Positions 3,283 through 52,584 of a stretch of 64,000 bases of DNA are shown one piece after another. The position numbers and the translations under genes were made by a program. The stretch comes from Syntrophotalea acetylenica (GTDB lineage Bacteria > Desulfobacterota > Desulfuromonadia > Desulfuromonadales > Syntrophotaleaceae), in NCBI RefSeq assembly GCF_001888165.1, contig NZ_CP015455.1, positions 1,854,001 through 1,918,000 on the forward strand, read 5' to 3'. Numbering within the stretch: position 1 is the first letter of the stretch; the number at the start of each line of letters is the position of its first letter. The notes below the pieces were generated by a model. The model did not search any database and was not told the origin of the DNA. It saw only the letters and a list, made by a program, of their open reading frames with translations.

Positions 3283-4017
3283 TCACCCGACAACCGGCAG
3301 CCATTGATAAAAAATGGCGGTCAAATAGCTGAAACCATTAAAAAATAGTAGAAGCCCTACAATCATGAGCATGATGCCGGTGAGCACCTCGGCGAGACGA
3401 ATATGCTTGCGGAAGCGATTAAAAAACCGCAGAAATCCGTGAAACATCAGGCCGGAAACCAGAAACGGCAACCCCAGACCGGCAGAATAGCTGGCGAGCA
3501 GGATGCCGCCACGCAAGGAACTTCCGGAAGATCCCGCCGCCATGGTCAGCACCGATCCGAGGATCGGCCCGGTACAGGGTGTCCATCCGGCTGAAAAAAC
3601 CAGACCGACAAGAAACGAACCAAAATAGCCGGCCGGCTTGTTGTGAATATGGACACGCTTTTCACCCAGCAAAATGCCGAAGTGAAAAAGCCCGGTCAAA
3701 TGTATGCCGAACAGAAAAACAAGCAGTCCTCCAAGCTTCTGAACCCAACGCAAACCATCCTGCAAAAGGCCGAAAAGACTGCCGGCAACCACTCCCATGA
3801 CGGTATATACCAATGAAAAACCCGCGATGAACAGCAGGCAGTGCAAAACCACCTGCCAGCGAACCCTGCTTCCGGGATGAGATTGCTGCAATTGCTGAAA
3901 ACTCAACCCAGTAATATAGGTGATAAAGGATGGGATCAGCGGCAGCACACACGGCGAGACAAACGAAGCCAGTCCTGCCGAAAAAGCAATCCAGAAGGTA
4001 ATATCGCCCGCCTGCAT
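3283..4017 (-). CDS. ccdA: CcdA-type thiol/disulfide transmembrane transporter
   Basis: 244-residue polytopic inner-membrane protein of the CcdA/DsbD-beta family, which passes electrons from cytoplasmic thioredoxin to periplasmic thiol proteins used in cytochrome c maturation. The two family cysteines are visible in FVSPCVLPLIPS near the N terminus and GWTPCTGPILG in the middle. About six hydrophobic segments are present. The start MQAGDITF at 4017 overlaps the stop of the upstream thioesterase gene by one base (TGATG), which supports it over the longer in-frame start. Cytochrome c maturation fits a Desulfuromonadales host. No other ccm genes lie in the window. Confidence 0.88.
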   Translation of the reverse strand: MQAGDITFWIAFSAGLASFVSPCVLPLIPSFITYITGLSFQQLQQSHPGSRVRWQVVLHCLLFIAGFSLVYTVMGVVAGSLFGLLQDGLRWVQKLGGLLVFLFGIHLTGLFHFGILLGEKRVHIHNKPAGYFGSFLVGLVFSAGWTPCTGPILGSVLTMAAGSSGSSLRGGILLASYSAGLGLPFLVSGLMFHGFLRFFNRFRKHIRLAEVLTGIMLMIVGLLLFFNGFSYLTAIFYQWLPVVG

Positions 4018-4529
4018 CAATAACGTCCTTCCGTTATCGGTTTTGCCGGGGCGACCAAGCTTTCCGCATCGCCGCACACGCCCGTAGCGGGCCGCAACAG
4101 CCTGAAATCCGCAGTGAATTCCGCCACCGCATGGTCCTGATCATCCTGAAGATCCACGTGGACAAGGTACCGGCGGCCATCGATCTGCTTTACCGTGGCA
4201 GCAGCGGTTACCGTACCCTGGCGAACCGGCGCGAGGAACCGCATGGAGAGGTTGCGGGTCGCGAAAGGCGTCGAGACCGGCAAGCAGGTTTTGACCGCCA
4301 TGGCGGCCGCCGTATCGGCCAGTGCGGTCAAGGCACCACCGTGCAAAAAGCCGCCCCCCTGAGAAAGTTTTACGACAAAGGGCATCGTCAACACAGCGCG
4401 CCCGTCACAGGCTTCGATAATGGACATTCCCACCAGTTTTTCAAACGGCGCCAGATCGACCCACCCTTCCATCTCGAACTGAGAGTCGGCGGGATTTCGC
4501 GGACTGTCGCCATCGACCAGAACTTTCAT
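4017..4529 (-). CDS. Hotdog-fold thioesterase (PaaI-like)
   Basis: 170-residue protein with the hotdog fold pattern: GMSIIEACDGRAVLTMPF, then GGFLHGGALTALADTAAAMA, in which the HGG and following acidic residue form the usual active-site region. This is followed by strands RNLSMRFLAPVRQGTVTAAATV. The family hydrolyses acyl- or aryl-CoA thioesters. The substrate cannot be assigned. The ATG at 4529 is preceded at good spacing by GGAG, better than the in-frame GTG at 4538. It is the first gene of the run leading into ccdA and is divergent from the AEC transporter gene. Confidence 0.8.
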   Translation of the reverse strand: MKVLVDGDSPRNPADSQFEMEGWVDLAPFEKLVGMSIIEACDGRAVLTMPFVVKLSQGGGFLHGGALTALADTAAAMAVKTCLPVSTPFATRNLSMRFLAPVRQGTVTAAATVKQIDGRRYLVHVDLQDDQDHAVAEFTADFRLLRPATGVCGDAESLVAPAKPITEGRY

Positions 4530-4611
4530 TGCGGACACTCCATGCTAAAAGAACATTGCAAACACCCGAAGCGGCAGGGTATGGTCGCAGGAAATCCAGC
4601 GGGGAATTCCC

Positions 4612-5568
4612 ATGCAGCACTTTTTAAACACCCTGAACATCATCCTGCCAGTGTTTGCCGTCATCACTCTCGGCGTCATTTTGCGTCGAATCGGCCTTAT
4701 TGACCAGACTTTTCTGCAACAGATCAACCGACTGCTGTATTATGTTTTTCTGCCGCTGCTGCTTTTCTACAAAATCAGCACGGCCGACTTCGCGACAAGC
4801 TTCAGCCCCAGGCTCACCCTGGCCATGATTGCCACATTGAGCCTGGGGGCCCTGCTGTCCTATGCCGCCGCATACCTGCTCGGTTATCCGCCGGAGGATC
4901 GCGGCACTTTCAGTCAGGGCGGTTTCCGCGGCAACCTTGCCTATGTAGGACTGCCCATCATCATGAGCGCTTACGGCGACGCCGGTTTCACCCGGGCCGG
5001 ACTTCTCATGGGATGCCTGGTTCCGATCATCAATGTGTGGTCCATTCTGGTGCATATCATGGCGCAGCGCCACCAGCAACCCGAACGGCATTGGCGCCTG
5101 ATCCGCCATCAACTGCTGTGCAATCCGCTTATCCTCGGTGCTGCCGCGGGTATTTTCTGGAACCTGGCAAAATGGCCCGTAGCGGGCGTGGCCGAACGAA
5201 GCCTGCACATGGTTACGGCGGCAACCCTGCCCCTGGCCCTGCTGACCATCGGCGGCGTGTTTTCACCGCGACAGCTGCAGGGGGACTTGAAACAGGCCGG
5301 GCTCGCCACCCTATTCAAGCTGGTCCTGTTTCCAATGCTGAACCTGCTGATCCTCTTGCCGATGCACCTGTCCACGATGGATCTCGGCATCGCCGTGCTG
5401 CTTGCCGCCACGCCCACCGCCGCCGCGAGTTATGTCATGGCGCAGGAACTGGGTGGCAATCCCCGCCTGGCCAGTTCCATTATCATCCTCTCAACCCTGT
5501 TTTCGGCGGTGAGCGTCACACTGCTGCTGCTGCTGTTGAGCTTTCTGCAGGGCATGCCAGCCTCATAG
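4612..5568 (+). CDS. AEC-family (auxin efflux carrier-like) transporter
   Basis: 318-residue inner-membrane protein with about ten hydrophobic segments in two halves. Family features include an N-terminal NIILPVFAVITLGVILRRIG, FRGNLAYVGLPI in the first half, and TPTAAASYVMAQELGGN near the C terminus, the usual AEC signature. Bacterial members move dicarboxylates such as malate or malonate, but the substrate here is unknown. GGGGA precedes the ATG. The gene stands alone and ends against a hairpin shared with the convergent pyruvate carboxylase gene. Confidence 0.88.
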   Translation: MQHFLNTLNIILPVFAVITLGVILRRIGLIDQTFLQQINRLLYYVFLPLLLFYKISTADFATSFSPRLTLAMIATLSLGALLSYAAAYLLGYPPEDRGTFSQGGFRGNLAYVGLPIIMSAYGDAGFTRAGLLMGCLVPIINVWSILVHIMAQRHQQPERHWRLIRHQLLCNPLILGAAAGIFWNLAKWPVAGVAERSLHMVTAATLPLALLTIGGVFSPRQLQGDLKQAGLATLFKLVLFPMLNLLILLPMHLSTMDLGIAVLLAATPTAAASYVMAQELGGNPRLASSIIILSTLFSAVSVTLLLLLLSFLQGMPAS

Positions 5569-5600
5569 CGGTTCGCGGCAGCGGCACAAGGGTACCAAAC

Positions 5601-5633
5601 ACAAAGAGCCAGACAGGGTGTCCGGCTCTTTGT
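5601..5633. terminator. Bidirectional terminator between AEC and pyc
   Basis: A 15-bp inverted repeat with one mismatch and a GGG loop lies between two convergent stop codons (5568 and 5660). It can act on both transcripts, though the T tracts are short. Confidence 0.75.
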
Positions 5634-5659
5634 GTCCATACATTTATCGAGCAGAAGCT

Positions 5660-8600
5660 CTATTCCAGGATCAGCAGCAATTCGCCCTGCTCCACCTGGG
5701 TTCCCTCCCTGATCAGAATCTCGGCAACCACGCCGTCCTTTTCGGCTTTGACATTGGTCTCCATCTTCATCGCTTCGGTAGACAACAGAATATCGCCTTT
5801 TTTCACAACACAACCGACATCGACCAGAATCCGGAACACTTTGCCGGGCATCGGCGCACCGACATGATGCAGATTGTCCGGATCGGCCTTGCGATGCTTG
5901 ATCTGATCGTCGGCTACCGAAAGGTCGGGAACCATGATCTGGCGCGGTTCGCCATTGAGCTCGAAATAGATGTCGCGATGTCCGTCATCCTGAATCCGGC
6001 CGATGGCATTGAGCTGCACCAGCAGGTTTTTGCCCGGCTCCATTTCTACGGTACATTCGTCGCCGAGATCCAGACCATAGAAGAACACCGGCGTCGGCAG
6101 CACCGACGTGTCCTGGTATTCCGTTCGATGTGCATCGAACTCCTCGAAAACGCCGGGGTAAAGCACCGCCGACAACACGTCCCGCTCCGAAACCGGATGG
6201 CCGAGTTTGTTCTCCAATTCCTGACGTTTGGCGACGAAATCGACCGGTTCGAGAAATTCACCAGGGCGGCAGGTCAAAGGTTCCTCGCCCTTGAGAACGA
6301 TCTTCTGCAGTTTCTCGGGGAAACCACCGTGAGGTTGCCCGATCATGCCCTTGAAGAAATCAACCACACCCTGCGGAAAAGTCAGTTCCTGCCCCCGTTC
6401 GTAAACATCCTCCGGTTGCAGATTGTTCTGCACCATGAACATGGTCATGTCGCCGACGATCTTGGATGACGGCGTGACCTTGATGATGTCGCCGAACATG
6501 TCGTTGACTTTGCGGTACATCTCCTTGCACTCTTCCCAGCGGTCGCCGAGACCAAATCCCTCAACCTGCGGTTTGTAGTTGGAATACTGGCCCCCGGGAA
6601 TCTCGTGATGGTAGACCTGGGCGGTGCCGCTGCGCAGCTCCGACTCGAACGGCGCATAATAGGTGCGCACCGTCTCCCAGTAATTGGCCAGCTTCTGAAT
6701 ACCTTCCTCGTCCAGACCGGGGTCGCGATCATGTCCTTTTAGAGCAGCCAGCAGCGCATTCATGTTGGGCTGCGCGGTCAGACCGGATACGGACGACAGG
6801 GCCGTATCAACGATATCGACACCGGCCTGGGCGGCCAGCAGCAGAGTCGCCCCGCCGTTGCTGGAGGTATCATGGGTGTGCAGGTGGATGGGAATCCCGA
6901 CCTCCTGTTTCAATGCCCGCACCAGTTTTTCGGCGGCCAGCGGCTTGAGCAGCCCGGCCATGTCCTTGATGCCAAGGATATGGGCACCCATTTTTTCCAG
7001 CTCTTTGGCCATGTTAACGTAGTAGGACAGTGGATACTTGTCGCGCTTGGGATCGAGAATGTCCCCGGTATAACAGATAGCCGCCTCGCAGACACCACCG
7101 GACTTGCGTACCGCATCCATGGCTACCTGCATCCCCTTGGTCCAGTTCAGAGAATCGAAAATGCGGAACACATCGATGCCGCTCTCTGCCGCCTTGGCGA
7201 CAAATTCCCGCACCACGTTATCAGGATAGTTGCAGTAACCGACGGCGTTGGAGGCCCGCAGCAGCATCTGGAACAGGATGTTGGGGATTTTTCTGCGCAG
7301 CCGGTCCAGACGCTCCCATGGATCCTCCCGCAGAAAACGCATGGCGACATCAAAAGATGCGCCGCCCCACATCTCCAGCGAAAAAAGCCCACTGCCAAGG
7401 TGACTGGTGGCCGGAGCAATCTTGGCCAGGTCATGGGTTCTGAAGCGGGTGGCCATCAGCGACTGGTGAGCGTCACGCATGGTGGTGTCGGTGATCAGCA
7501 ACTGCGGCTGCTCAAGAGCCCACCGCGCCAGGCCTTCGGCCCCCTTTTCGAGCAGGATGTCCCGTGAGCCCTTCGGACGCGGCACGTCATAGCGGATTTC
7601 CGGAATGCGGGGGTCGCGCAAATCCTTGTAATGCAATGGATTTTTAATGCCTGGATAGCCATTGACCACCACATGCCCGATATAGGACAGCAGCTTGCTG
7701 GAACGATCACGTTTTTCCGGTATCTCGAACAGTTCGGGATGCGTGTCGATAAAACTGGTATCGCAGGCCCCGGCCAGAAAGGTCGGGTGGTTGATGACGT
7801 TGGCCAGAAAACCAATATTGCATTTGACACCGCGCAGCCGGAATTCCGCCAGACTGCGGTCGGTAGTGCGGGCCGCCTCGCGCAGGGTCAATCCCCAACC
7901 GCTGATTTTAACCAGCAGCGAATCGTAATGGGGAGAGATCCGCGCCCCGGGAAAAGCGCTGCCGGCATCGAGACGCACGCCGAACCCGCCAGGGCTGCGA
8001 TAGGCCGTAATGGTGCCGAAATCAGGGGAAAAGTTCCGGGTCGGATCTTCGGTCGTGACACGGGCCTGAATGGCGAAACCGTTGAGCTGAATATCCTTCT
8101 GGCCGCGTATGTTGATTTCCGGATCGCTCAAACGGTATCCCTCGGCCACGCGGATCTGGGCCCGCACCAGATTTCGCCCGGTCACCATTTCCGTCACGGT
8201 ATGCTCGACCTGAATGCGGGTATTGACCTCGATAAAGTAGAAATGGCCTTCGGCATCCATCAGGAATTCAACCGTACCGGCGTTGACATAGCCGACATGA
8301 TTGGCGATGCGCAGGGCGTAATCGCACAACTCCTGCCGCTTGGCGGCGCTCAGGTTCGGCGAAGGTGCCACCTCGATGACTTTTTGGTGACGGCGTTGAA
8401 TGGAACAGTCGCGATCGTAGAAATGCACCACGCTGCCATGCTGGTCGCCAAGGATCTGCACTTCGACATGCTTGGGGTTTTCAATGTATTTTTCAAGGAA
8501 AACCGACGGGTTACCAAATGCCGCCTTGGCTTCCGAGGATGCCGACCGCAGACCTTCGGCCAACTCCTGCCGGTTACGCGCGATGCGCATGCCGCGCCCG

Positions 8601-44926: not shown

Positions 44927-45193
44927 TATGAATGAGTCTCCGGGCTGTTTCAGCCGGGGCGAAACATGCCACTTTCCGGGGAAGAACGCTTTATAAAAAA
45001 TCACGGCAGAGGTTGCGTCCCTCGCGAAGCACAATTTACAAATCCGATGGTGCCGCAAAAAATCCGTTCTACAGCGTTACGGCGTTTTTTACCACCAGAA
45101 CACACGACAAACATGCCTTCACCCCTGAAAAACCCCAAGCCCTGCAGGACGAATTTTTTGCCTGGACGTCCAGGTTTTCACAAACACCTCAAT

Positions 45194-47170
45194 CTAATCA
45201 GTAAAAACCAGCCCATCGAAATCATCGTCGGTTGCCGTAATCAGTTGATCGAAATTCTTCCTGGCGAGCGTTGCCAATTCACCAAGGGGGATGATCTTGA
45301 AAGGATCGAAATCGAAGCTGCTCATGTTCCTGGTTACATGGTAAAAAGCAATGGCTTTCTCCGGTTTGATGCCCATCGCCAGCAGTTGCCGGCAACCTTG
45401 CTGCAACAACACTATTTTACCGTACAAGTCATCCTTGTCGGCAACAGTCCAGACACCGAGATAGATGGGGCTGTCTATGTTCTTGACATCGCCCTTGAAT
45501 TCACCGCGAATGAGCTGATCTCTTTTCCTGTTTAAAAGCGGTACGAAATCCAGGTGCTCGGCCAATCGCCGGTCGGCAGCATAAAAATTCCCGGTATCCG
45601 GATCAAGCGTAAAGATGATGGTTTTATTGATGGCCTGTCCGTAACTTTTAAAATATATGCCCTTGTAATCCTCAAAATCATATGTATTCAGAAGAAATTT
45701 TTCATTCTTTTTGATACGATTGATCATGCCAAGCAGCCAGAATTTAATGATTTCGTGATCAACTCGATATTTCTCAATTTCTTCTTTAATCTGTTTGAAA
45801 CTGGTTTTTCCATACCGATAGGTCAGAATAAGTTTGAAGATATCACGGACGTTATTGTAATTACTGAAAGACTGAATCAGATCATAACTGAAGATTTCCA
45901 TCCGCCTTAAATGCCAGATCAGGGAAGCCACTTCGGTCCGGCCGCTTTTATCACTCAACTCCAGCGTCTCGGTCGCCTTCATGAACCCGATAAAGCGCGT
46001 CTCAAGCAAGCCAAGGCGGTCGGTTTTTTTCTTGGTGCTGATATTCAGGGTGATGGTCCAGCGGGTAAACTTGCCCTCGCGGCTTTCGACCTTGATATTC
46101 CCCGCACCAAACGTCGAAAAAACCTGTCGGGTTCCGACACCCTCCCCTGCCCTGTCCGCCTTGGTCGTTTTGCCTACGAATAGCGGAAGGTTGCGATTGT
46201 CGAGCTGCAACCGCTCCGCGCCAATGCCGACTCCATTGTCCTGGATGATCAGCACCACCTTCCCTTCCTTGCGGGTAATCATGATCTGAATGAGCCCGCT
46301 TCTGCCAGCCTCTTCGATGGCATCAATGGCGTTGGAAGTCAGATTGATCAGCGCCCGGCTGTAATCCATGTAACCGCCGATGACAGGGGGTATGCTTGCT
46401 CCCAGCACGAGGCGAACCTCACAGGGGACATTGGAAGCTTCAATGAAAGGTATCACCCTGTTGGTGAGAATTTCCTTGATATTGACTTCGTGAGAAGCTT
46501 TGATTTTATCTTCATACATACTCAAGGTATTGAGCAGTGCCGTATTTTCCCGATTGATATCTTCGATAATATTATTGAAGTTATCAACAGACATGATGGA
46601 AACCATATCCGATAGAACTTTGAGGGATTTTTTCGCATCATGCCGGACCTTGCTCAACTCCTCCAGAACCGATACATCTTTATCCTTGAGCGATATACCT
46701 TTTTCCAGGATTGATTTTGCGGTAGCGGACATAAGGTAGAAACGCATTTTACGATATACCGTGGACTCTTCAAGATTAAAACCGTTGCTATAAAAAAAGT
46801 CTATCGTGCTTACAAGTTTTTCCCATACGAACAAATAAATATAGGATTCACCAGGAACGTCTTTGGCAAGTTTTCTTATAAAGGTTGAACCTATGCCTTT
46901 GCCTCGTCCAAAAGGTGAAGTAACCTGTTTATATACCTGAAACTTTGTCTTGTCCGGATTTGAATAAACGAGAATATATCCAAGAAATTCTCCCTCTTCG
47001 TCCCATACGTAACTGTGCTCATAATCGATTTCTAGAAATTTGTCCTTGATAAAAGGTGAAGGGATGAGAATTGAATCAATATTTAAAAACGGGATTTTCT
47101 TGATCTTGTTCTGATCTTCAATTGTAAGACACCTGATATAGGTAAAGTCATTTGTTGCAACCTCATCCAT
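45194..47170 (-). CDS. GNAT acetyltransferase/histidine-kinase ATPase fusion protein
   Basis: 658 residues. Residues 1-145 are a GNAT-like domain: acetyl-CoA loop RGKGIGSTFI (89-98) and FFYSNGF (125-131). A helical linker carries VRHDAKKSL (H177), reminiscent of the RHD phospho-acceptor box of AgrC/Spo0B-type kinases. A HATPase domain follows (NLTSNAIDAIEEA from 276, DNGVGIG 311-317, AGEGVGTRQVFSTFGAG 341-357). Residues 380-658 match nothing I recognise. No membrane segment or response regulator is present. AGGAAGAGG precedes the ATG. Base composition is lower in G+C than the flanks (the 60 bases from 45661 have 16 G or C), which hints at transfer. Confidence 0.82.
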   Translation of the reverse strand: MDEVATNDFTYIRCLTIEDQNKIKKIPFLNIDSILIPSPFIKDKFLEIDYEHSYVWDEEGEFLGYILVYSNPDKTKFQVYKQVTSPFGRGKGIGSTFIRKLAKDVPGESYIYLFVWEKLVSTIDFFYSNGFNLEESTVYRKMRFYLMSATAKSILEKGISLKDKDVSVLEELSKVRHDAKKSLKVLSDMVSIMSVDNFNNIIEDINRENTALLNTLSMYEDKIKASHEVNIKEILTNRVIPFIEASNVPCEVRLVLGASIPPVIGGYMDYSRALINLTSNAIDAIEEAGRSGLIQIMITRKEGKVVLIIQDNGVGIGAERLQLDNRNLPLFVGKTTKADRAGEGVGTRQVFSTFGAGNIKVESREGKFTRWTITLNISTKKKTDRLGLLETRFIGFMKATETLELSDKSGRTEVASLIWHLRRMEIFSYDLIQSFSNYNNVRDIFKLILTYRYGKTSFKQIKEEIEKYRVDHEIIKFWLLGMINRIKKNEKFLLNTYDFEDYKGIYFKSYGQAINKTIIFTLDPDTGNFYAADRRLAEHLDFVPLLNRKRDQLIRGEFKGDVKNIDSPIYLGVWTVADKDDLYGKIVLLQQGCRQLLAMGIKPEKAIAFYHVTRNMSSFDFDPFKIIPLGELATLARKNFDQLITATDDDFDGLVFTD

Positions 47171-47293
47171 AGAAAGCCTCTTCCTTTCAGTTTATCCGGT
47201 CAGGGCGACTGGTCCTGAACAATCTGCCGGGCACCGACTCGTCTCTCGCTTCCGGCATTGAAACGTCACAGGCATCGAAAAAAACGATTCAAA

Positions 47294-47334
47294 CACCAAC
47301 GGACCCTTACTCGCACAGTAAGAGTCCGTTGGTG
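47294..47334 (-). terminator. Terminator of the citrate synthase gene
   Basis: An 18-bp stem with one mismatch and a 5-base loop. A T-rich tract follows on the minus strand (TTTGAATCGTTTTTTTC), 60 bases past the stop at 47394. Confidence 0.8.
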
Positions 47335-47393
47335 TGCTGCAATCTGCTGGCGACAATCGTCGACCTTCGCATGCGAGCCTTCCTGGCAAAGAT

Positions 47394-48698
47394 TCAGCGA
47401 ATCCCCGCCACATCCTCCATCATGTCCAGGGTTACGGATTTGGGCCGTTCCAGAGGATAGCCAAGAGCCCGGTCCCAGATAATATTGGCCAGCACGCCTA
47501 TCGCCCGACCGACGGCAAACAAAACGGTATAGTATTCATATTGGGTTATACCATAGTGCCACTGGATCACGCCGGACTGGGCGTCGACGTTCGGCCAGGG
47601 GTTCCGGGCCTTGCCATGTTCCCGCAGCACATTCGGCGCCACCTTGTAAAGCATCTTGACCAACCGATATAACTTGTCATCAGGCAGATATTTTTCGCAG
47701 AACTCCATCTGCGCCTCAAACCGCGGATCGGTGCGCCGCAAGACCGCATGCCCGTAACCCGGGATAACCTGGCCGCTGTTCAGGGTTTCCCACAAATAAG
47801 CCGCCAACTCTTCTTCAGTGGGAATTCTTCCGTCGAGCTTTTCCATCTTCCCCTGAATCCAGCGCAACACCTCCTGATTGGCCAGACCGTGCAAAGGCCC
47901 CGAAAGACCGTTGACGCCGGCGGAAAAGCTGTAATAGGCATCGGCCAGAGCTGAAGCCACCAGGCGGGTGGTGTGGGTCGAGACGTTGCCCGACTCGTGG
48001 TCGGAATGCAGAATGAAATACATGCGCGCAACATCGTCGTAGGGCGGCGCAATCCCCATCATATGTGCGAAATCCCCGCCAAGATCAAGCTCCGGATCCG
48101 AGGGTATGGGAGTATCACCCTTGTATTTGAGACGATATATAAACGCGGCAATGGCAGGCAGCCTGGCCAGCAGGTTGCAGGAATCCTCATACATGGGATC
48201 CCAGAGGTCGCCCTTGCTCATGCCTTCATTGTATCGCCTTGAAAAAAGCGATTCGCGCTGCATGACGACAACGGCAGCGGAGAGCATGGCCATGGGATGC
48301 AGATCACGAGGCATGGCTCGCAAAGCCTCGAAAACGTAGCCCGGCACAGGCCGCCGTGCCTGAAAATCCTTGACGACCTGGAGGGTTTGATCCATAGTCG
48401 GCACCTCCCCCGTCAGGAGAAAGTACCAGAACCCCTCGACAAAGGGATATTCGGACCCAGGCACCCTGGGCAGGGCTGCGAAGGTTTCGGCTATGGTTTT
48501 TCCACGAAACCGCACGCCCTCCTCGGGGTCGAGATAGGAAATATCGCTGACCAGACACTTTACTCCCCGCACACCGCCGATGGCCTGCGCTATGGAGACC
48601 CTGTCCAGCTCTACCCGGCCAAACTCCTTGAGCAGACGGGTCACGCGGGGACGCTGCTCCTCAATTTTTTTGAACAGAACGTCTTTCAGCCTGGGCAT
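47394..48698 (-). CDS. gltA: Citrate synthase, eukaryote-like type
   Basis: 434 residues. The enzyme condenses oxaloacetate and acetyl-CoA at the entry of the TCA cycle. Catalytic regions: HSDHESGNVSTHTTRLV, PLHGLANQEVL, PGYGHAVLRRTDPRFEAQMEF and the late NVDAQSGVIQWHYGI. The GYGHAVLR-TDPR block and length are like mitochondrial citrate synthase rather than the E. coli GltA form; such enzymes were described in Geobacteraceae. The start at 48698 has AAGGAG six bases upstream; the maximal frame to 48887 is not supported. Single gene, divergent from dusB. Confidence 0.95.
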   Translation of the reverse strand: MPRLKDVLFKKIEEQRPRVTRLLKEFGRVELDRVSIAQAIGGVRGVKCLVSDISYLDPEEGVRFRGKTIAETFAALPRVPGSEYPFVEGFWYFLLTGEVPTMDQTLQVVKDFQARRPVPGYVFEALRAMPRDLHPMAMLSAAVVVMQRESLFSRRYNEGMSKGDLWDPMYEDSCNLLARLPAIAAFIYRLKYKGDTPIPSDPELDLGGDFAHMMGIAPPYDDVARMYFILHSDHESGNVSTHTTRLVASALADAYYSFSAGVNGLSGPLHGLANQEVLRWIQGKMEKLDGRIPTEEELAAYLWETLNSGQVIPGYGHAVLRRTDPRFEAQMEFCEKYLPDDKLYRLVKMLYKVAPNVLREHGKARNPWPNVDAQSGVIQWHYGITQYEYYTVLFAVGRAIGVLANIIWDRALGYPLERPKSVTLDMMEDVAGIR

Positions 48699-48986: not shown

Positions 48987-49970
48987 GTGCAAATGAAAAT
49001 AGGATCGCTACACCTTAAACACAAATTATTATTGGCGCCCATGGCGGGGATCACCGATCTTGCCTGCCGGCTGATCATGCGCCCGTTCGGTATCGGCCTT
49101 GCTTTTTCGGAAATGGTCAGTGCCAATGGCCTGGTTCTGGGTGGCGAGGCAACAAAAGATCTGCTGATATCCGTACCCGAGGACCGGCCTCTCGGCATCC
49201 AATTGTTCGGCGAAAATCCCGAAATTCTGGCCGAGGCCTGCCGCCGGATCGAGGAACATTGTGATGTCATCGACATCAATATGGGATGCCCGGTAAAAAA
49301 AGTCGTACGCAGCGGCGCCGGCAGCGCCCTGTTGAAAAATCCGGCGCGAGCAGCCGGAATCGTCGCTGCCATGCGCAAAGCAACCAGCCGGCCTCTGACA
49401 GTCAAAATCCGCGCTGGATGGGATCAGGCCTGCATCAATTTCCTGGAGATCGCGCACATCGCCGAACAGGAAGGAGCCGATGCCGTAACCCTGCACCCGC
49501 GGACCCGCAGTCAGGGTTTTTCCGGCTGCGCTGATTGGACCCTGATTGCCACGTTGAAGCAGCAAATTAAAATCCCGGTCATCGGCAGCGGTGATGTTTT
49601 TACACCCCGTGATGCCCTGCGCATGCTGGAGGAAACCGGCTGCGACGCCGTGATGCTCGGGCGCGGCTGTTATGGTAACCCCTGGCTGGCCGGCCAGATT
49701 CTCGATCTGCTGGGCGGCAAAGTGCCGCACGCACCAACGACTCAGGAACGCTGCGAAATCGCGCTGCTGCACATGGATACTTTTCTGCGTCATAACAGCG
49801 AGCGTAAAACCGTGCTGGACATGCGTAAACATCTTTGCTGGTACGCCAGAGGTTTAAGCGGAGCCGCCCAGTTCCGGGCCGCCGTTAACAAGGTGGAGCA
49901 ATTGGAGGAACTGCGCTCCGTGGTCAAGCAATTTTTCAGGAACGCCGAACCGCCCGCCGAGGTCTCATGA
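48987..49970 (+). CDS. dusB: tRNA-dihydrouridine synthase DusB
   Basis: 327-residue FMN enzyme that reduces uridines in the tRNA D loop. TIM-barrel motifs: LLAPMAGITDLACRLI, the catalytic-cysteine region DINMGCPVKKVVRSGAGSALL, VTLHPRTRSQGFSG and GSGDVFTPRDALRML followed by GCDAVMLGRGCYGNPWL. The first start is GTG at 48987, with ATG at 48993 as an alternative; neither has a visible Shine-Dalgarno site. The stop overlaps the ntrB start by ATGA, the classic nifR3/dusB-ntrB-ntrC arrangement. Confidence 0.94.
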   Translation: MQMKIGSLHLKHKLLLAPMAGITDLACRLIMRPFGIGLAFSEMVSANGLVLGGEATKDLLISVPEDRPLGIQLFGENPEILAEACRRIEEHCDVIDINMGCPVKKVVRSGAGSALLKNPARAAGIVAAMRKATSRPLTVKIRAGWDQACINFLEIAHIAEQEGADAVTLHPRTRSQGFSGCADWTLIATLKQQIKIPVIGSGDVFTPRDALRMLEETGCDAVMLGRGCYGNPWLAGQILDLLGGKVPHAPTTQERCEIALLHMDTFLRHNSERKTVLDMRKHLCWYARGLSGAAQFRAAVNKVEQLEELRSVVKQFFRNAEPPAEVS

Positions 49971-51067
49971 AAAACCGGGAGCCAAAGGATCGTGCCCTCT
50001 ACATGAGGGTGCTGGAAAACATGGAAGAGGCGGTGGTCGCCATCGACAATGACGAGCGCATCGTGCTGTTCAATCCCGCCGCGCAGATATGCACCGGATA
50101 CTCTGAACGGCAGGCGTTAAAACGGCTCCTTGGCGACCTGTTCGGCTCGAGCGCCGACCTGCTGCGTCTGGTGCGCTCTGCCCTTAGCTCGGGACGCTCG
50201 ATCACCAGTCATGAGGATATCATGCTCAGCCGCAGTGGCGCTACGCCGCTGCCGGTCGGCGTGTCGGCTTCTCCATTGTTCAACGATGATGGCGAGCAGG
50301 AAGGAGCGGTTCTGATCCTGCGTGATCATTCCCAAATCCGGGAACTGGAGGAGACGGTCCGTCAGGCGGACAGGCTCGCCATGCTCGGCACCCTCGCTGC
50401 CGGCCTGGCCCATGAAATAAAAAACCCCCTTGGCGGCATTAAAGGAGCGGCTCAATTGCTGAACCTCGAATTGCCTCCCGAAAACCCTTTGCGGGAATAC
50501 ACCCGGGTCATGACCCGCGAAGTCAACAGGGTCAATGATCTCATCGAAGAGCTTCTTGACCTGACGCGACCTCGTCCGACACAGTTCGGCGAAGTCAATC
50601 TGTCACGCATTTTGGCCGACCAGGTTTTACTGCAGAAACAAAGCCATCCGGACAAGCAGATCAGCTATCAACTGCAACTCGACCCCAGCATCCCGACAAT
50701 ACGGGGCGACGAAGCCCTGCTTTCACGGCTGTTCCTGAACCTGTTGAAAAACGCCGGCGAGGCCATCGAAAGCAAGGGGTTGATTACGGTAACCTCGCGC
50801 ATCGCCGGGCAATATCTTTTCAACAAACCCGGCGAACGACCGGTACCGATGGTCACGGTAGAGATCCAGGACAACGGACCGGGTATCCCCGAAGACCAGA
50901 TCGACCGCATCTTTACACCCTTTTTCACCACCAAAACCCGTGGCTGTGGATTGGGACTGGCCATCTGCCAGAAAATCATCAACGAGCATCAGGGGTCGCT
51001 GCGGGTCAACAGCCGGCCGGATCAGGGCACGACTTTCACCATCTCCTTGCCCCTGAAAAGAGGTTGA
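49967..51067 (+). CDS. ntrB: Nitrogen-regulation histidine kinase NtrB
   Basis: 366 residues, cytoplasmic. A PAS domain (about 12-125) is followed by the dimerisation/phospho-acceptor helix AGLAHEIKNPLGGIKGAAQLL with H149, then N box LLKNAGEAIE and G boxes DNGPGIPEDQI and GCGLGLAICQKII. NtrB phosphorylates or dephosphorylates NtrC in response to the PII protein. It overlaps dusB by four bases and is followed by ntrC after about 80 bases, so nitrogen control is the expected role. Confidence 0.93.
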   Translation: MKNREPKDRALYMRVLENMEEAVVAIDNDERIVLFNPAAQICTGYSERQALKRLLGDLFGSSADLLRLVRSALSSGRSITSHEDIMLSRSGATPLPVGVSASPLFNDDGEQEGAVLILRDHSQIRELEETVRQADRLAMLGTLAAGLAHEIKNPLGGIKGAAQLLNLELPPENPLREYTRVMTREVNRVNDLIEELLDLTRPRPTQFGEVNLSRILADQVLLQKQSHPDKQISYQLQLDPSIPTIRGDEALLSRLFLNLLKNAGEAIESKGLITVTSRIAGQYLFNKPGERPVPMVTVEIQDNGPGIPEDQIDRIFTPFFTTKTRGCGLGLAICQKIINEHQGSLRVNSRPDQGTTFTISLPLKRG

Positions 51068-51150: not shown

Positions 51151-52584
51151 ATGTCCATTCAACGCATTCTGGTAGCCGATGACGAAGAAAGTATCCGCTG
51201 GGTGCTGCGCAAGGCGCTGAGCAAACAGGGTTTTAATGTGGACCTTGCCGCCGATGGTGGCGAAGCCAAAAATCTTTTCAGGCGACGGCACTACGATCTG
51301 GCCATCCTGGACATCAAGATGCCGGATACTTCCGGACTGGATCTGCTGCGCTACTTTCAGGAACAGCGCCCGGAAATGCTGGTCATCATCATCACTGCCG
51401 AATCCTCCATGAAAAATGCGGTGGAGGCCATGAAACTCGGCGCCTATGATTATCTGACCAAACCCTTCGACCTGGATGCCCTCGAAGCCATTATCGTCAA
51501 GGCCCAAAAAGCAGCAGCGGCCGCCGAGGAAGTGCATCGCCTCAAAACCGAGCTGAAAGAACAATATCCCCTGGATCGCGCCATCATCGGCAAGAGCAAA
51601 CCGATGCAGGAGATCTATAAAATCCTCGGCCGCGTGGCGCCCACGGACGTCACGGTGCTCATCACCGGCGAAAGCGGCACCGGCAAGGAGCTGGTCGCCC
51701 GGGCGATTCACTACAACAGCCCCCGGGTTGGCAAGGACTTTCTGGCGCTGAACTGTGCCGCCATCCCCGGAGAGTTGCTGGAAAGCGAGCTGTTCGGTCA
51801 CGAAAAAGGCGCCTTTACCGGTGCCACCGATCGCAAGATAGGCAAATTCGAGCAGGCCAGCGGCGGAACCTTGTTTCTCGACGAAATCGGCGACATGCCC
51901 CTTGAGCTGCAGGCCAAACTGCTGCGCGTTCTCCAGGAGAAGGAGATCACCCGCACCGGCGGCAGCAGCTCCATACCCGTTGATGTGCGCATCGTTGCCG
52001 CCACCAACCAGAACCTGCGGGAAAAAGTCGCCGCCCGCGAATTCCGCGAGGATCTGTTCTACCGACTGAATGTCGTCCCCATCGCCATTCCGGCCTTGAG
52101 AGAGCGGCGGGACGATATTCCCCTGCTGGTGGAGTTTTTTCTCGACCGTGCCCGCGAGGATCTCAATGTCGGCGTTCAGGGATGCACCAGGGAGGCCATG
52201 GCACACCTGAAGCGCCATGACTGGCCCGGCAACGTCAGGGAACTGGAAAACACCCTGAAGCGTGCAGCCCTGTTATCCTCAGACCAGATGCTCACCCCCA
52301 GTGACTTTCCCGGGCTGGTTCCGGAACCGGCCCGCAAGGAAGCCGAGGAATCCCTGGAAGCACTGATCGCCAACAAGCTAACAACCACCTTTGCGCCCAT
52401 GGATGTCAATGAGCTCAATAATCTTTATCAGATGGTGCTGCATCAGATGGAACGCCCCCTGATCACCATCATTCTCGAAAAAACCCGTGGCAATCAGGTG
52501 CGCGCGGCGGAAATTCTAGGTATCAACCGCAATACCTTGCGCAAAAAAATTCAGACGCTGGATATTGACCTGAAGGAACTGTAA
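51151..52584 (+). CDS. ntrC: Nitrogen-regulation response regulator NtrC
   Basis: 477 residues. Receiver with D54 (LAILDIKMPD), AAA+ domain with GESGTGKE (173-180), GAFTGA (220-225) and Walker B FLDEIG, and a Fis-type helix-turn-helix at the C terminus (GNQVRAAEILGINRNTLRKKIQTL). It activates sigma-54 promoters of nitrogen assimilation genes when phosphorylated by NtrB. It ends the dusB-ntrBC operon and is closed by a strong hairpin. It is clearly distinct from the orphan regulator at 11.6 kb. Confidence 0.94.
   Translation: MSIQRILVADDEESIRWVLRKALSKQGFNVDLAADGGEAKNLFRRRHYDLAILDIKMPDTSGLDLLRYFQEQRPEMLVIIITAESSMKNAVEAMKLGAYDYLTKPFDLDALEAIIVKAQKAAAAAEEVHRLKTELKEQYPLDRAIIGKSKPMQEIYKILGRVAPTDVTVLITGESGTGKELVARAIHYNSPRVGKDFLALNCAAIPGELLESELFGHEKGAFTGATDRKIGKFEQASGGTLFLDEIGDMPLELQAKLLRVLQEKEITRTGGSSSIPVDVRIVAATNQNLREKVAAREFREDLFYRLNVVPIAIPALRERRDDIPLLVEFFLDRAREDLNVGVQGCTREAMAHLKRHDWPGNVRELENTLKRAALLSSDQMLTPSDFPGLVPEPARKEAEESLEALIANKLTTTFAPMDVNELNNLYQMVLHQMERPLITIILEKTRGNQVRAAEILGINRNTLRKKIQTLDIDLKEL

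Follow-up and report, generated by a model that had tools for sequence, protein, structure and literature searches.

A soluble protein joining a GNAT domain, a histidine kinase core and a conserved C-terminal domain: an apparently undescribed family in Desulfuromonadia and spirochaetes

The window analysed here, a stretch of 64,000 nucleotides from Syntrophotalea acetylenica, carries on its minus strand an open reading frame at 45194..47170 (stop codon included) that begins with ATG and encodes a protein of 658 amino acids. The genome holds a single full-length copy, and seven further matches cover only parts of residues 155–382, the kinase core. A sequence-only reading of this DNA had described the product as a three-part fusion of a GNAT domain, a kinase core and a domain of about 280 residues of no recognised kind, and Pfam bears this out, with matches to GNAT and HATPase_c and nothing on residues ~383–658. 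The claim that a membrane anchor is absent also holds, as the highest 19-residue Kyte-Doolittle mean in the protein is 1.21 and hydropathy reveals no membrane segment (no mean above 1.6) in any of the 82 proteins of the family, the window's and some fragments included. A model of the full-length protein has a mean pLDDT of 74.8 and a pTM of 0.45, with values below 50 at residues 160–226. All features described below as parts of this gene lie on the minus strand.

The N-terminal part is a GNAT domain at residues 45–131 (46778..47038), matched by Pfam Acetyltransf_1 (PF00583) at 32.4 bits against a cut-off of 20.7 (E 1.2e-7) and detected in all 40 members scanned, that of the window among them. 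The R/Q-x-x-G-x-G/A acetyl-CoA loop is present as PFGRGKGIG at residues 86–94 (46889..46915), with R89 an arginine in 80 of 82 members and a lysine in the other two, and with G92 and G94 in all 82. Outside the loop, P37-S38-P39 is kept in 40/40 members. In GNAT enzymes, the tyrosine of an lYeklGF-type segment near the end of the domain is a frequent general acid. At the place of this residue in NAA50, the only PDB protein whose sequence matches the GNAT profile at E<=1e-4, the window's protein has F126, and the family has Phe in 78 and Tyr in four of its 82 members. Judged from these residues, loss of the usual tyrosine favours a binding over a catalytic role, although a domain with Phe in this place could be catalytic nonetheless. 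The reading of acetyl-CoA by this domain would be compatible with the combination of a conserved CoA loop and a missing tyrosine.

Two predicted helices at residues ~170–225 (46496..46663) follow, which resemble the DHp helices of histidine kinases and over which the model is weak (pLDDT <50). They contain the RHDAKKSL box to which the sequence-only reading had drawn attention; the motif begins at R176, so that the predicted phosphoacceptor is H177 (46640..46642), which is followed by the acidic D178, both residues being identical in 82/82 members. Lysine at position H+4, K181 (46628..46630), is likewise present in 82/82. In one HMMER alignment, to an HK853 variant (4jas), RHDxxK lies over the HELRT box, with H177 on the acceptor histidine and K181 opposite the threonine at H+4 (T264 in HK853 numbering); this placement comes from one of the four HMMER alignments shown, the other three beginning downstream of the box. 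Pfam HisKA has no match in the window's protein (E<=1) and is absent from the families matched by the 40 members scanned (E<=0.01).

How unusual this lysine is can be gauged from 24 other kinase-like boxes, all taken from the DNA gathered for analysis of the kinase family, in which H+4 is Asn in 15, Thr in seven, Ser in one and Lys in one, giving T or N in 22/24; the lone lysine box is probably a chance match to the search pattern, as is one of the 58 family matches. According to PMC5706477, Glu or Asp next to the acceptor histidine is needed for kinase activity and Asn or Thr for phosphatase activity. With a lysine at H+4 in place of that Asn or Thr, the box suggests a kinase that would work without the common phosphatase chemistry.

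The ATP-binding (CA) domain of the kinase core, residues 271–376 (46043..46360), matches HATPase_c (PF02518) with an E-value of 1.9e-10 and 41.6 bits against a cut-off of 26.4, and the domain, with its N, G1, F and G2 boxes, is matched in 40/40 members scanned. Its fold agrees with kinase CA domains at Z-scores of up to 19.6 (ZraS 9jfj, rmsd 2.7, 145 residues aligned). In one spirochaete clade (L121, L150 and L176), an insert of several dozen residues occupies the ATP-lid region ahead of the G2 box; the L150 protein is 718 amino acids long, with identity that is uneven along its length (53% and then 37%).

Directly after the CA domain comes a region that appears in AlphaFold as two parts, a helical one at residues 379–513 (45632..46036) and an alpha/beta one at residues 514–645 (45236..45631) with many invariant polar residues. 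Modelled alone from 64 sequences (the 74-row alignment described below with ten rows left out), residues 378–658 give a confident structure, with a mean pLDDT of 91.6 and a pTM of 0.88. The profile search and structure prediction proposed for this region by the sequence-only reading thus give a region with no described family and a confident model with no clear counterpart in the PDB. Pfam has no match on residues ~383–658 and only scattered weak names on 64 C-terminal regions, and a Foldseek search of the PDB and of viral models has no result at E<=0.001. The best PDB match is the Stay-Green protein 7y5y (Foldseek E 0.12); VIA-align superposes the alpha/beta half on it with Z 6.5 and rmsd 4.4 over 125 residues, a range that the tool flags as perhaps a mere common arrangement, so that a Stay-Green or ADF-H-like fold is a tentative match at most. 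The helical half aligns with the GGA3 GAT domain (1yd8; Z 9.5, rmsd 2.3, 89 residues), a score to which the tool's caution also applies, and helical bundles may share an arrangement only. No known enzyme fold is recognised in the C-terminal domain. Matches in PHROGs are weak throughout: some fall on the kinase and GNAT parts, and a single one on residues 179–256.

The C-terminal domain is found only in the GNAT-kinase protein, bar one chimera-like locus. At this locus (L080, genome G626), the family's C-terminal part stands behind a TIR-like start, named by eye and opening with DVFISYASEE, and the ATPase domain is halved; the locus may have arisen as a chimera, in assembly or by recombination. 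A further C-terminal match, in genome G673, is by eye an apparent membrane HD phosphohydrolase and was taken as a chance match.

For the protein as a whole, no characterised family emerges from Pfam, from the PADLOC models of anti-phage defence (0 families matched) or from the best 25 of 40 NCBIfam matches, all of which are far under cut-off, with ZraS and AtoS at the top. A literature search over titles and abstract openings found no published fusion of a GNAT domain with a histidine kinase. The earlier statement that no described system has its domains in this order is upheld within these libraries and this search, and the soluble GNAT, kinase and C-terminal protein looks like an apparently undescribed family.

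Members of the family are concentrated in one bacterial class, with a second group in another phylum. In the Desulfuromonadia, 52 of 277 genomes match at E<=1e-30 with one copy each, most of them full length, and the full-length matches are 51–82% identical; the gene is carried by 6/6 genomes of the window's genus and 13/14 of its family. A profile of the C-terminal region recovers 51 of 271 Desulfuromonadia genomes at the same loci, together with two extra short fragments at contig ends, and a C-terminal search of a phylum-wide sample matches 2/395 genomes. In a sample of Spirochaetota, 10/392 genomes hold the gene, and one further match, that in G673, is taken as chance. A scan of named genomes, which required one of two peptide patterns, gives 73 loci whose titles are of Desulfuromonadales or Geobacter type (some only "Deltaproteobacteria") or spirochaetes. 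Homologues from named strains include those of Geomonas sp. Red32 (L112) and Alkalispirochaeta alkalica DSM 8900 (L135). As the divergent spirochaetes surfaced only in the search of the Spirochaetota sample and not in the pattern scan, other phyla may hold members too. Among viral contigs and phages there is no relative, and plasmids give one match, covering 23% of the query in its kinase part.

The architecture is more than chance, since relatives at 40–82% identity keep the same domain order in two phyla. Homologues also conserve the GNAT and ATPase motifs on which the sequence-only reading depends. In an alignment of 82 members, R176, H177, D178, K181, E203, E208, N276, N280, D311, G313, G315, G342, G344 and G346 are identical throughout, as are W419, N440, R442, Y510, Q512, T521, G556 and W574 in the C-terminal domain and, within its alpha/beta part, R534, E538, H539, D541, R555, E557, D561, K605, Y610 and T613. 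Between the two phyla, GNAT and DHp each average 47% identity, CA 44%, the C-terminal helices 31% and the alpha/beta part 48%; columns conserved at >=97% number 21/150 in GNAT, 11/56 in DHp, 22/153 in CA, 8/135 in the helices and 24/132 in the alpha/beta part. By these counts, fixed positions are most frequent in DHp and in the alpha/beta part, with GNAT and CA next. A 74-row alignment leaves out eight rows (L072, L077, L078, L079, L080, L081, L149 and L150).

The base composition of the gene had been taken as a sign of acquisition, a claim of which one half stands. G+C is indeed lower in the gene (44.1%) than in its flanks (55.4%). In the other five members of the genus, the gene is also 7–12 points under its flanks, and because low G+C is thus common to the whole genus, a recent import into the window's genome is unlikely. 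Among the 39 other Desulfuromonadia loci whose flanks are long enough, the gene is 0–7 points below in 31, 17 below in one and above in seven; the mean difference at 25 spirochaete loci is 1.5 points. A gene tree (built without L079, L080, L081 and L149, and with L173–L175 also not included) separates spirochaete from Desulfuromonadia members cleanly and places the window's genus next to a second genus from the same family, at an SH-aLRT of 89, which is modest rather than firm. The window's family sits in two places in the tree, although it may have a single origin.

At its own locus, the gene starts 223 bp past a citrate synthase gene on the same strand and is followed by a gene for a CxxCxxCC-domain protein. 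A citrate-synthase-like ORF lies ~200 bp upstream in six loci, with Pfam confirmation for the window's only, and the start of the citrate-synthase-like protein is similar in L031–L034. Neither promoter-like (sigma-70) sites (6, versus 3.8 +- 1.8 in shuffled sequences) nor terminator-like sites (3, versus 2.8 +- 2.0) are in excess in 45000–47600. That no partner regulator is nearby, as had been claimed, is true of the immediate neighbours and fails further out, where a kinase and regulator pair lies 2.8–5.4 kb away on the other strand. This adjacent pair consists of a PAS histidine kinase with an HEIKNPL box (49967–51067) and an NtrC-type sigma-54 regulator (51151–52584).

A survey of the neighbours of homologues, proposed in the sequence-only reading, finds none conserved family-wide. 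When ORFs are clustered at 82 loci, 33 of which have flanks shorter than 3 kb on one side or both, no conserved operon partner appears: the largest clusters consist of antisense ORFs inside the gene and the rest are limited to close relatives or small groups. Among the small-group neighbours, named by eye, are an ABC-ATPase-like gene in eight spirochaetes and an aspartate-kinase-like gene in four. Receiver domains are only slightly denser near the gene than further out, with ten, in nine loci, at <=1.5 kb (245 kb of sequence) against 18 at 1.5–7.5 kb (778 kb), as counted at 90 loci, some with short flanks. Genus g310, with all six of its loci, and genus g315, with both of its own, account for eight of these nine. 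The receiver proteins at the nine are not alike: some are single-domain regulators of two kinds, one (L039) is a longer regulator, and others are hybrid kinases, again of two kinds.

Two more specific candidates were tried and rejected as general partners. In L053 and L075, which belong to two families, an HDOD histidine kinase and then a REC-PAS-GGDEF-EAL gene lie upstream of the GNAT kinase (positions 3522–7863 of the oriented L053 and 3641–8028 of L075), with products that are 28.7% and 39.5% identical between the loci. These neighbours offer hints of c-di-GMP signalling. The HDOD kinase occurs in 80/234 genomes of the class, 66 of them outside the carriers of the GNAT kinase, and was not found in the window's genome or in ten further genomes of the window's family, all listed as unmatched. 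In the spirochaetes, L188 and L196 (from the small genomes G661 and G658, respectively) have a similar REC protein that ends in a tail of ~110 residues and lacks a linked kinase. At E<=1e-28, this protein is found in 57/392 sampled Spirochaetota genomes, namely 7/10 with the GNAT kinase and 50/382 without, a co-occurrence that relatedness alone could explain. At the same threshold, seven Desulfuromonadia and three spirochaete carriers give nothing (best E 5e-24), and their weaker matches are mainly to the receiver domain, with a few, at 28–32% identity, reaching residue 180–214 of 243.

Sequence and models show the order of the domains, the conserved motifs, a soluble protein, no neighbour common to the family and wide retention. 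The best reading, to which we give about an even chance, is a cytoplasmic HisKA-like kinase with a CoA-binding GNAT input that acts in trans on a regulator encoded elsewhere and has a C-terminal gating domain. The GNAT domain would bind acetyl- or acyl-CoA and serve mainly as an input domain, with CoA as the probable signal. The CA domain would bind ATP and phosphorylate H177 within a presumed dimer, as other kinases do, and the phosphoryl group would then be handed to a response regulator from another locus, probably not the same one in every lineage. Lysine at H+4 would leave the protein biased toward kinase activity and presumably without ordinary transmitter phosphatase activity, and the C-terminal domain may gate the kinase on binding a second ligand or some conserved partner. 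This reading is favoured because the kinase boxes and H177 are invariant, the CA fold matches, the H box aligns with HELRT, F126 replaces the GNAT tyrosine, no membrane segment is present, receivers neighbour the gene in g310 and g315, and L053 and L075 have the same signalling genes upstream; it is weakened because HisKA has no match, the DHp model is poor, the H-box alignment is a single one, no partner was found, the nearby receivers are little enriched and of several kinds, and a GNAT domain with Phe could be catalytic.

Among the alternatives, the one that survives best, though we consider it doubtful, makes the GNAT domain an active lysine acetyltransferase that is switched by the kinase module, so that the protein would write both phosphorylation and acetylation on one shared regulator. 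Both CoA-loop glycines are kept in 82/82 members, and the P37-S38-P39 segment in 40/40 is conservation beyond the CoA loop of the kind that an acceptor pocket would show. A precedent is also at hand, as the GNAT protein Pat of Porphyromonas gingivalis is described as acetylating the orphan regulator RprY (PMC5706477). Against this stand the replacement of the usual tyrosine by Phe in 78/82 and the lack of any conserved neighbour gene fit to be the substrate.

Somewhat less probable, and in our view unlikely, is a metabolic or stress switch that uses no response regulator, in which the GHKL ATPase and the conserved histidine drive a C-terminal alpha/beta effector, either an enzyme or a binding module. 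At least ten invariant polar residues in the alpha/beta part, its restriction to the GNAT-kinase protein (apart from L080) and the lack of a conserved partner all count in favour of such a switch. Retention of the DHp-like helices, the acceptor histidine and all of the CA boxes speaks against it, the DHp is as rich in near-invariant columns (11/56) as the alpha/beta part (24/132), and the latter has no recognised enzyme fold.

Two further ideas fare worse. K181 lies one helical turn from H177, and because a GNAT domain coexists here with an invariant lysine at a position normally served by the amide or hydroxyl of a side chain, it can be imagined that the GNAT domain acetylates K181 in cis, the amide-like acetyl-lysine mimicking Asn or Thr so that the level of acetyl-CoA would decide whether the protein changes from kinase to phosphatase, with the C-terminal domain as a new sensory fold; we regard this as a long shot. 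That the protein is an ordinary, newly acquired two-component kinase with nothing special about it is most improbable, as its G+C, 11 points under the flanks, recurs at 7–12 points below in a genus of which 6/6 members carry the gene, and the tree mostly tracks families.

If the favoured reading of a CoA-responsive, trans-acting kinase is true, a soluble histidine kinase would give His-Asp signalling a direct link to the acetyl-CoA pool within one protein, and such an acetyl-CoA-coupled kinase would have been kept in both Desulfuromonadia and spirochaetes. The invariant lysine at H+4 provides a sharp and testable prediction for the balance of kinase and phosphatase activity, and the C-terminal domain, conserved and of no described family, offers in its invariant residues ready targets for mutation.

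Three known systems come closest to the protein. With the GNAT acetyltransferases it shares the RxxGxG CoA loop and the GNAT core, here within a kinase fusion; it differs in having Phe for the usual tyrosine (78/82) and in joining the GNAT domain to a kinase. The closest kinases, by the best 25 of 40 NCBIfam matches and by PDB matches, are of the ZraS, AtoS, KinB and HK853 type, a class we take to be HPK4. Like these HisKA/HPK4-type kinases, the fusion has the CA fold with its boxes and H-D/E at the acceptor; unlike them, it has a GNAT input, Lys at H+4, an extra C-terminal domain and no Pfam HisKA match. The Pat-RprY system of Porphyromonas gingivalis is similar in that a GNAT protein acts on two-component signalling without a linked kinase, and it is dissimilar in that Pat stands alone as a protein whose gene is co-transcribed with that of the regulator (PMC5706477), whereas here GNAT domain and kinase form one protein.
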